Shown here in pieces: positions 4,612-24,298 of a stretch of 53,219 nt of DNA. A program made the position numbers and the translations under genes. The stretch's first letter is position 1; every line of letters begins with the position of its first letter. Source of the stretch: Pisciglobus halotolerans. Its GTDB lineage: Bacteria; Bacillota; Bacilli; Lactobacillales; Carnobacteriaceae. The stretch lies in the NCBI RefSeq assembly GCF_900113675.1, contig NZ_FOQE01000013.1:1-53219 (forward strand), written 5' to 3'. Under the pieces are notes generated by a model. That model had not been told where the DNA came from, searched no databases, and saw only the letters and a list, made by a program, of their open reading frames with translations.

Positions 4612-5046
4612 TTTCTACGTGTTCAAATCAAAACTTCTTTCCCATTTTACCACAAAGTAGCAGTCAGCTCTATGTCAATTCTACGATGCTCCAAAATAAA
4701 ACTTCGTAAGAGCCATCTTGATGTGCCTCTTTATGGACCTGTTCAAACAAATCGATGCTTGCAAGGTGTTGTGATCTCCTGCTTGCTGCAGATTAGATCA
4801 AATATCTACTGACACTTTTGGTTCTTCATCTTTTAACATTGATAAAGAAATGTGTTTCTAACCGGTTTAACATTTAACAGAAATGATTTTTTACTTAACA
4901 CTACACCGAGCACACGTTAGAAAGCAGTCTTCTCTTTCTAGGTGGATGAGTTTTTGATCTGTATGGAAATATTATTTATGATGTAAGCTGCTTTCAATGG
5001 ATGTTATTTCTTTTTAAAATTTTTTTATTCAAAGACTGCAATGAGT
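4612..5046. other. Gene-free stretch between gatC and the 52-bp array
   Basis: I see no credible reading frame on either strand. The part nearest gatC probably holds its promoter. The rest is AT-rich sequence without recognisable repeats, running into the tandem array at 5047. Confidence 0.5.
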
Positions 5047-5440
5047 TTGAGTTGGTCAATAAGAAGCGTTATTGACAAACTCGATGGGCGCAACTAGCTT
5101 GAGTTAGTTAATAAATGACGTTAATGACAAACTCGAATGCCACAACTAGTTTGAGTTGGTCAATAAGAGGCGTTAATGACATACTCGAATGCTACAACTC
5201 GTTTGAGTTGGTCAATAAATGACGTTAATGACAAACTCAAAAGCTGCAACTAGTTTGAGTTGGTCAATAAGAGGCGTTAATGACATACTCGAATGCCACA
5301 ACTCGTTTGAGTTGGTCAATAAATGACGTTAATGACAAACTCAAGAGCTGCAACTAGTTTGAGTTGGTCAATAAGAGGCGTTAATGACATACTCGAATGC
5401 CACAACTCGTTTGAGTTGGTCAATAAGAGGCGCATTCGAA
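5047..5440 (+). repeat. 52-bp tandem hairpin array, copy 1 (8 units)
   Basis: Units start at 5047, 5099, 5151, 5203, 5255, 5307, 5359 and 5411, spaced exactly 52 bp, each opening with TTGAGTTGGTCAATAA or a close variant. The last unit is cut short after about 22 bp. Each unit contains an inverted repeat (GAGTTGGTCAATAA against TTAATGACAAACTC) around a 6-nt centre. From unit 3 on, two sequence types alternate (AAGAGGCG and AAATGACG centres), giving a 104-bp higher-order period. Units 5 and 7 are identical. The same unit occurs in opposite orientation at 23495-23755. There is no variable spacer, so it is not CRISPR. Confidence 0.9.
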
Positions 5441-5593
5441 ACCAGTTCGAATGGCTGCGCAAATCGAGTACTTCACCGAATTAGAGATTGTAAATGGGAG
5501 AGATTGGTATACACTTGTCAGTGCTAAAGTTTAATGATCAAAATGCTCTTTATGCAAAGGGACTGAAAAAGAGGAAATTATTGCATAATCTAT

Positions 5594-5747
5594 TATTCAG
5601 TAGGCATTACTGATTATCGTTAAATGTTGTAAAACCGCACTTTTCCAGTTTTATGCAGAAAAGAAAAAATGATGTCCTTTTCCGATCAACATTGGAAAAG
5701 GACATCATTTTTTGGTCTCATTTAAGTTTTTAATGAATGCCTACTGA
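5594..5747. repeat. 13-bp inverted repeat flanking the camS terminator
   Basis: TTCAGTAGGCATT at about 5594-5606 is repeated inverted as AATGCCTACTGAA at 5735-5747, enclosing the perfect terminator hairpin. A related imperfect direct repeat (ATTGCATAATCTATTATT near 5582, ATTGCATGTTCTATTATT near 5800) lies outside it. It could be a decayed small mobile element or a duplication. I see no target duplication or gene. Confidence 0.5.
5664..5713. terminator. Bidirectional intrinsic terminator behind camS
   Basis: A perfect 20-bp stem (AAAAAATGATGTCCTTTTCC and its complement at 5694-5713) with a 10-nt loop. A/T runs at the stem base can serve as T-tracts in both directions. It lies about 170 nt beyond the camS stop and probably ends the pcrA-ligA-camS transcript. 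Confidence 0.85.
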
Positions 5748-5886
5748 ACAAAGGAAGAATGTACTGCTGACAAATGTTTCGACATGCTTTTTTCAAATAA
5801 TTGCATGTTCTATTATTAAGCAGCCATTAAACATCTTTGAATTGGTTCCATCGGGTTCATCTTTGCTTAAAGCGCATGATGATCCT

Positions 5887-11307
<5,421 letters not shown>

Positions 11308-23441: not shown

Positions 23442-23494
23442 TGTGACTGCTCAAATTTCGTTTCTCTTTTGAGTCGGAACGATACTCCTTTTGC

Positions 23495-23755
23495 GTACCA
23501 ACTCAAACTTGTTGCTGCTTCTGAGTTTGTCATTAACGCCTCTTATTGACTAACTCAAACCTGTTGCTACTCTCGAGTTGGTCATTAACCCCTCTTATTG
23601 ACAAACTCAAACTTATTGCAGCTCTCGAGTTGGTCATTAACCCCTCTTATTGACTAACTCAAACTTATTGCAGCTCTTGAGTTGGTCATTAATGTCTCTT
23701 ATTGACTAACTCAAACTTGTTGCAGCTCTTGAGTTGGTCATTAATGCTCTTAAAT
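23495..23755 (-). repeat. 52-bp tandem hairpin array, copy 2 (about 5 units)
   Basis: ACTCAAAC anchors recur at 23501, 23553, 23605, 23657 and 23709, exactly 52 bp apart. Read on the minus strand the unit (TTGAGTTAGTCAATAAGAG... TTAATGACCAACTC) is the same as the array at 5047-5440, with a few differences per unit, and forms the same hairpin. Here the units are of one type and do not alternate. Confidence 0.88.
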
Positions 23756-23861
23756 AAAAAACTCAGCTGCCAGCCTAAAGAGGTCTTTGCGCTTTTTAGG
23801 GCGTTAACCTGTTTTTAGTCTGACAGCTGAATGTCATGCTCTTTTCATCGACCTCGCTTCG

Positions 23862-24298
23862 CATTGTCATGGCTCTTGCGATTTTTAATCGCTTAGAGAC
23901 ATGACACACTTTGCCGGAATGGCATCAGTACTTCCAATAACGATTTTGCTTTTTCAGGACTTCTCCGTATCCTTGTAGTTGAGTTGCGCGAGGTAGAGTC
24001 TCGGCAAAATTCAAAAGACGCTCACATGCGCTGGATGGTCTGTGTTGTCATGGCTCTTGCGATTTTTATCGCTTAGAGACATGATACACTTTGCCGGAAC
24101 GGCAACAGTGCTTCCGATAATGGTTTTGCTTTTTCATTTTTCTGTCGTCTCTATCGACCTCGCTTCACATCCTATTAGTTGAGTTGCGAAAGCCAGAGTC
24201 TTTGCAAAAAAGATAAGTTGTTTTGATGCGCGCTCCGCTGCTCTCTTCAACAACTTCCTATTTTTGCTGTGACTCTTGCAGGCTTTCTCCGTATCCTT
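23862..24298 (-). repeat. Composite hairpin repeat cluster behind the ABC permease gene
   Basis: No gene. It is a mosaic of the three modules seen elsewhere: the GTCATGGCTCTTGCGATT type at 23862-23972 and again at 24044-24174, half of the GCGAGG..CCGAGACTCT type at about 23979-24041, and a complete nested hairpin at 24181-24298, roughly 95% identical to 51940-52059. The cluster ends 4-5 nt from the stop codon at 24303. Confidence 0.8.

Follow-up and report, generated by a model that had tools for sequence, protein, structure and literature searches.

The window, a stretch of 53,219 nucleotides from Pisciglobus halotolerans, carries an array of 52-bp hairpin units between camS (PF07537) and gatC (TIGR00135). 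The array lies within a longer element that points against both genes, and a strong terminator-like stem, flanked on inspection by an A run upstream and a T run downstream, stands between this element and camS (Table 1). GC content was 39%. The eight left arms of the array begin at 5049, 5101, 5153, 5205, 5257, 5309, 5361 and 5413, a step of exactly 52 bp, and Tandem Repeats Finder reported 7.5 copies of period 52 with 0% indels and a score of 540. The same program scored period 104 at 650; thus, the dimer pattern of this array is real. Two units, 5248-5299 and 5352-5403, are identical. Arm motifs with at most three mismatches numbered 33 in the window, compared with 6.4 expected and a maximum of 12 in dinucleotide shuffles, and a longer right-arm motif was found 10 times, compared with 0.04 expected from such shuffles, both counts including a second array in the window. 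These shuffles rule out chance as the source of the array.

The original prediction had described eight units at perfect 52-bp spacing; the spacing was exact, and the eighth unit proved to be a left half only. The alternation of two unit types that it had proposed was borne out by the higher score of period 104, and the fifth and seventh units are identical, as it had stated. The inverted repeat that it placed in each unit does yield a regular hairpin array, but the repeat is not exact: two internal mismatches recur, and several units differ from the arms that had been quoted. In the family to which this array belongs (F1), stem columns 15/38 and 20/33 were usually mismatched (31/34 and 28/34 units, respectively). 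Expansion by dimers, also predicted, agrees with the local 104-bp period; higher-order periods were found in some other arrays, but not in all.

A CRISPR array was rejected because unique spacers were not found and the entire 52-bp unit repeats, linker included, and a coding role was rejected because 52 is not a multiple of 3. Rfam covariance models at gathering score gave no match within the window, and in 14 fetched loci they matched T-box, lysine, PyrR and L17DE only, none of them on an array.

Table 1. Coordinates of the array, its flanking modules and associated features in the window
Feature	Position	Strand	Basis
A box, left flank module	4896..5039	+	85% identity with the A box of C46
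Sigma70-like promoter, TTGATC-17-TATGAT, directed toward the array	4954..4982	+	Promoter scan
F1 array of seven complete 52-bp units, ending in a left half unit	5040..5432	+	Tandem Repeats Finder, unit alignment
C box, right flank module, opening with a short hairpin, CATTCGAA-ACCAG-TTCGAATG	5433..5609	+	Seven copies
Possible decayed right inverted end	5607..5632	-	Inspection against intact right ends; inference
Strong intrinsic-terminator-like stem, outside the element, between element and camS	5667..5710	+	Terminator scan, 1 on the + strand vs 0.8 expected
One F4-like unit, in register (52 bp) with the F1 array	23471..23504	-	GAGT at 23471 and at 23523
F1 array, about five units, without A or C box	23505..23752	-	Tandem Repeats Finder, unit alignment

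Anatomy of the composite element

The printed flanks of 26 arrays or single units, their alignment and searches of the source genome revealed a composite element made up of an A box (about 145 bp), 52-bp units and a C box (about 190 bp), with 8 copies in the genome. Both boxes are present in six copies (the window, C41:147.5 kb, C43:85.6 kb, C46:102.4 kb, C65:2.0 kb and C84:17.6 kb), which hold arrays of 1 to 8 units. The copy at C31:11.9 kb (L069) has the C box only, with 12 units, and the copy at C41:6.6 kb (L071) has only a partial A box. Distinct 5' and 3' modules therefore surround a variable number of tandem central units, from 1 to 12 across the eight copies. The A box was found in six full copies, with its inner half in a seventh. 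The 3' part of the C box (about 5540-5609) matched 17 further places; therefore, several element types with related ends are present in the genome. The majority of arrays carry neither box; the second array of the window is one of these.

Inverted ends of the sequence TAACACTACAACGAACA stand at both sides of three array-bearing copies and of one 181-bp relative, 181 to 797 bp apart, and the remaining composite copies have one end decayed or missing. The left end of the window A box reads TAACACTACACCGAGCA at 4896-4912, with 2 mismatches to the intact ends. The end pattern was found at 16 places at up to 2 mismatches, compared with 2 for a reversed-pattern control. Each recognizable TAACACTACAACGAACA end starts with TA; this dinucleotide may belong to the repeat itself and not represent a target duplication. 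Similar ends, the left one decayed, surround an array of other sequence (family F3) at L103 (C69:23651-24240), the period of which is also 52.

Two smaller elements were observed as well. In the 181-bp relative (C75:68848-69028, L104), which has inverted ends at both sides, only fragments of the A, array and C modules seem to remain. Adjoining the array element of the window, two C-box-tail fragments at 5724-5831 lie inverted about 100 bp apart and make up a second small dispersed element.

The promoter-like site of the A box is intact in 4/7 A boxes (the window, L073, L079 and L084). It is altered to TACGAT in L074, has a spacer 5 bp longer in L088 and is without the -35 in L071. The promoter scan found 5 promoter-like sites in 1.3 kb, compared with 4.3 expected, a chance-level result that is no evidence alone.

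The composite element is probably a small BOX-like mobile element. The search for a transposase covered the Y1 and DDE_3 families: the genome had no match to the Y1 (RAYT) domain PF01797, for which control matches were found in 5/14 genomes, and none to DDE_3 (PF13358), with control matches in 3/14. An IS630-type mobilizer, suggested by the TA at the ends, was rejected because the genome has no DDE_3 domain. An autonomous parent element was also rejected, since the end pattern, at its 16 places with up to 2 mismatches, formed no facing pair 1-3 kb apart.

Gene calls based on codon usage, made with our own script, overlapped 0/41 arrays, indicating a dispersed intergenic position; in a plain ORF list, 5/27 arrays were overlapped by ORFs of 70-114 codons. 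Among the 37 arrays with both neighbours, 27 lay between tandem, 7 between convergent and 3 between divergent genes, compared with 265, 61 and 60, respectively, for all gaps longer than 60 bp. A preference for convergent genes was therefore rejected, and the arrays had no orientation preference. At L090:7877-8671, a T-box leader (7877-8314) precedes an F3 array that lies ahead of the next called gene, a layout reminiscent of the one with T-box and BOX that is described for pneumococcal trpE in the available text of PMC3049150. At L081, a lysine riboswitch and a PyrR site have two arrays upstream of them, which are probably not part of those transcripts. Contig C34 (L070) ends inside an array, and N runs lie in or touch arrays of L069, L082, L085 and L087; because these arrays contain or touch gaps or a contig end, their unit numbers are probably underestimated.

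Repeat families and the shared 52-bp period

The view of the array as an isolated, satellite-like curiosity was not supported, and its copies extend beyond 5047-5440. The array makes up the middle of a dispersed BOX-like element and belongs to one of at least four diverged 52-bp families (F1, F2, F3 and F4), which form dozens of arrays in the genome. A second array lies on the minus strand of the window at 23471-23752. Further, the genome search for the unit that had been proposed as a check, run with model R1, found at least 26 loci in the source genome and none in 17 relatives.

F1, the window family, has arms GAGTTGGTCAATAA/TTAATGACAAACTC; the figure of at least 26 loci comes from hand clustering, with about 150 of 152 matches listed, and includes one F2 array. 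Model R1 (F1) had its stem offset by one column and was used for detection only. F2 is the GAGTGTGCGATAAA type, and F4 is the GAGTTGGAACG type, defined by L083:9254-9808 and L087:1721-2024. F3, with arms CTGTGAACGAGTT/AACTTGATCACAG, gave 139 matches in 32 loci by hand clustering, the best 150 candidates per genome being scored in its profile search as in that of F1. Loci of F3 include L103, L098:2738-3374 and L094:1841-2436, and several are close to C-box-tail copies. Two apparent dispersed repeats of other kinds were seen: CATGGCTCTTGCGATTTTTAATCGC... occurs twice in the window at 23850-24100, and GCGAGGTCGATAGAGGCGAC... forms two tandem 125-bp copies at L086:787-1031.

Tandem Repeats Finder, run on 773 kb, gave 43 distinct arrays with a period of at least 40, and 41 of the 43 have period 52, the exceptions having periods of 125 and 42; L088:10141 was dropped from this count as a duplicate of the L094 array, and a single gapped array may account for two L085 rows. 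Some 52-bp arrays also show the multiples 104, 156 and 208. Because the 773 kb of loci had mostly been chosen for carrying repeats, a 400-kb sample was drawn unseen, as 20 stretches away from known loci. All four arrays of period above 42 in this sample have period 52: two are of F2, one being atypical, and the others are of F3 and F4. The 52-bp spacing is thus shared across families, and the spacing itself may matter.

Unit length, arm pairing and their possible origin

Units of F1, F2 and F4 align gap-free over 52 columns (32 units, one from each of 32 array rows) and share GAGT...ACTC. Standard pairs occupied 82.4% of stem cells in this alignment, compared with 76.2% in shuffles, and double-changed cells numbered 32, compared with 18.1 (sd 3.0), a count that 0/500 shuffles reached; slid controls gave 4-14. 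The two measures rated by the covariation tool as least prone to relatedness were at chance level, namely pairs changed on both sides (7 vs 6.1, with 178/500 shuffles as high) and further pair types (17 vs 14.6, with 75/500 as high). Within F1 alone and within F3 alone, no covariation above chance was found. Arm pairing is largely kept, and its retention across F1, F2 and F4 is, judged from the alignment, likely rather than proven.

Unit length was examined by register, by spacing and by indels. In the register test, from which the terminal rows of most arrays were excluded, some of them shifted by a base (L088, L081:13292), 156/160 internal F1/F2/F4 units were in place; two misses adjoin an assembly gap and two are substitutions. 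F3 was looser, with 52/59 spacings of 52 bp and seven of 51 or 53. Neighbouring units of 41 arrays differed by 38 indels to 1649 substitutions, compared with 20:233 between nearest copies of the A or C box (Fisher p = 1.8e-5), in counts that are not independent and with boundary effects among the 38 array events. Indels were thus about 4-fold less frequent in arrays than in the boxes that flank them within the element. The period near five helical turns, with few indels, supports the earlier remark that 52 bp is close to five turns. Arm-to-arm distances are 20/32 bp in F1 and about 22/30 bp in F3.

The same 52-bp design recurs, with diverged arms, in dozens of other arrays of the genome. We consider it likely that the window array forms the variable middle part of a BOX-type composite element that is non-autonomous, and that unit length and pairing are selected. 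Such an element would be mobilized in trans by some transposase. Unequal recombination or slippage would enlarge and homogenize its arrays by multiples of 52 bp, often 104 bp at a time; the 104-bp and higher periods point to such growth by complete units or dimers. Selection would then keep arm complementarity and unit length, since a hairpin or dyad would be required of every unit at a constant phase relative to the next. The alternatives that follow bear mainly on this selection step, and some of them are compatible with the element reading. A DNA ruler of five helical turns would explain the few indels in both loops; a chain of RNA hairpins would explain the pairing across families and the promoter-like site.

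An account based on RNA hairpins, in which transcribed units alter termination or mRNA stability or bind a protein and the A box gives the promoter, is possible but somewhat unlikely. It fits the orientation of the promoter-like site toward the array, and in six two-unit foldings (two of them both strands of one stretch) four z values ranged from -2.5 to -4.5, the others being -0.65 and -1.8. G-U pairs outnumbered A-C mismatches on one strand in 15/15 oriented F1 arrays (141:29), and the G-U strand agreed with the genes in 13/18 arrays of tandem gene context. However, this strand preference is weak because three outer pairs mainly carry the excess and slid pairing shows no specificity (a ratio of 0.83 in register, compared with 0.29-0.93 in slid pairings). 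Further, RNA loops should tolerate indels, the promoter scan was at chance level, and the two L081 arrays probably fall outside the riboswitch and PyrR transcripts.

Comparable doubt attaches to a neutral satellite, in which slippage or unequal crossing-over of one ancestral 52-bp unit would have left a period that is inherited and not selected. Units are alike within an array and different between arrays, as such a process would produce, and the higher-order periods of 104, 156 and 208 agree with it. F1, F2 and F4, with their gap-free alignment and shared GAGT...ACTC, may have one ancestor, and the two covariation measures at chance level are what this account would lead one to expect. However, sequence divergence between the families came with hardly any change in length, and an inherited length fits less well with indels rarer than in the element's flanks. 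The largely kept arm pairing also argues against neutrality, but template-switch correction of palindromes could mimic it.

A phased protein-binding scaffold is unlikely. Here, dyad sites for a nucleoid- or partition-like protein would all lie on one face, and the arm cores would have changed with the protein or its paralogues. A period near 5 x 10.4 bp in all families would suit such a scaffold, as would the scarcity of indels, although two loops could absorb them, and the imperfect dyads with their recurrent mismatches. However, arm-to-arm distances differ between F1 and F3, and 7/59 F3 spacings are off by 1 bp. REP/BIME-type repeats moved by a Y1 (RAYT) transposase would likewise appear as dispersed extragenic imperfect palindromes in arrays, but this origin is very improbable and was rejected, since PF01797 has no match in the genome, compared with 5/14 control genomes, and the foot of the hairpin carries neither a GTAG nor a CGTC tag; read by eye, the hairpins end in GAGN...CTC in the 32 F1/F2/F4 units of the alignment.

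The preferred reading, a BOX-type composite element with a selected central unit, can be widened to the whole genome. Phased 52-bp hairpin or dyad arrays would then be free in sequence and selected for length and complementarity, and one ruler, either a protein array on one DNA face or a hairpin-RNA processing machine, would read dozens of loci in at least four families. This wider proposal is tentative, and we regard it as fairly unlikely.

Distribution and comparison with known systems

The profile search that found no F1 in relatives covered the 17 other genomes of the family, the genus holding only the source genome. Model R2 (F1/F2/F4), applied with strict filters, matched 0/147 other genomes of the order, the 17 relatives included and 48 genera in all; this search was less sensitive, because the best 39 candidates per genome were scored and the source genome itself gave at least 39 matches. 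F3 gave one weak single match in 1/17 relatives. A tandem-repeat scan of 560 kb from five relatives found one 52-bp repeat of 2.0 copies, and any longer arrays had periods other than 52, among them 90 and 121. This two-copy repeat, at L128:12765-12869 in relative G004, contains a hairpin and is probably due to chance.

Searches with blastn found no match for F1, F2, F3 or F4 in plasmids, and none for F1 or F3 in phages. The exact F1 pattern was found neither in viral contigs nor in a collection of 84,980 species, from which records near the source genome may be left out. A plasmid or phage origin was rejected, as the plasmid, phage and viral collections held no matches for the families searched. 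In the open-licence literature, no description was found of such a 52-bp tandem and interspersed repeat system in enterococci or in bacteria.

Bacterial tandem arrays usually vary in period between loci. Here, dozens of loci in diverged families have nearly one period, and two families lie inside elements with similar ends. Length is thus separated from sequence, and the cause of the unit length is therefore directly testable, with arrays of equal length and different sequence as natural replicates. MIRU of mycobacteria and LTRR of cyanobacteria have a near-constant unit length and form tandem arrays at many intergenic sites; to our knowledge, both are single sequence families without A or C modules. 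By this description, the present arrays resemble them in having one near-constant unit length in tandem at many intergenic sites, with A and C modules and at least four families in addition.

EFAR elements are palindromic, 42-650 bp long, and made from 16 sequence types. Compared by that description, the elements reported here are likewise small, palindromic, dispersed and modular in build; they contain tandem 52-bp arrays, which EFAR is not known to have. The occurrence of EFAR elements in enterococci is noted in the available part of PMC3733652, and the available parts of PMC2229807 and PMC10969869 gave no details of them. As described in the same part of PMC3733652, REP/BIME repeats are also extragenic imperfect palindromes in clusters. 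Unlike REP/BIME with RAYT, the system here has direct arrays, and neither a Y1 transposase nor a GTAG/CGTC tag was seen.

BOX elements of S. pneumoniae and S. suis have modular ends and variable tandem central units, would form hairpins if transcribed and have been proposed to be MITE-like, according to the available text of PMC3049150. Set beside BOX by description, the composite element has the same modular ends around variable tandem central units and is likewise dispersed. In S. suis, two kinds of ends are combined with the same central module, whereas here similar ends enclose different central modules (PMC3049150, available text). Also unlike BOX are the 52-bp unit, the presence of at least four central families of one length, and the many arrays without end modules. 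The composite element would extend the BOX-type modular MITE to the lineage of the source bacterium.
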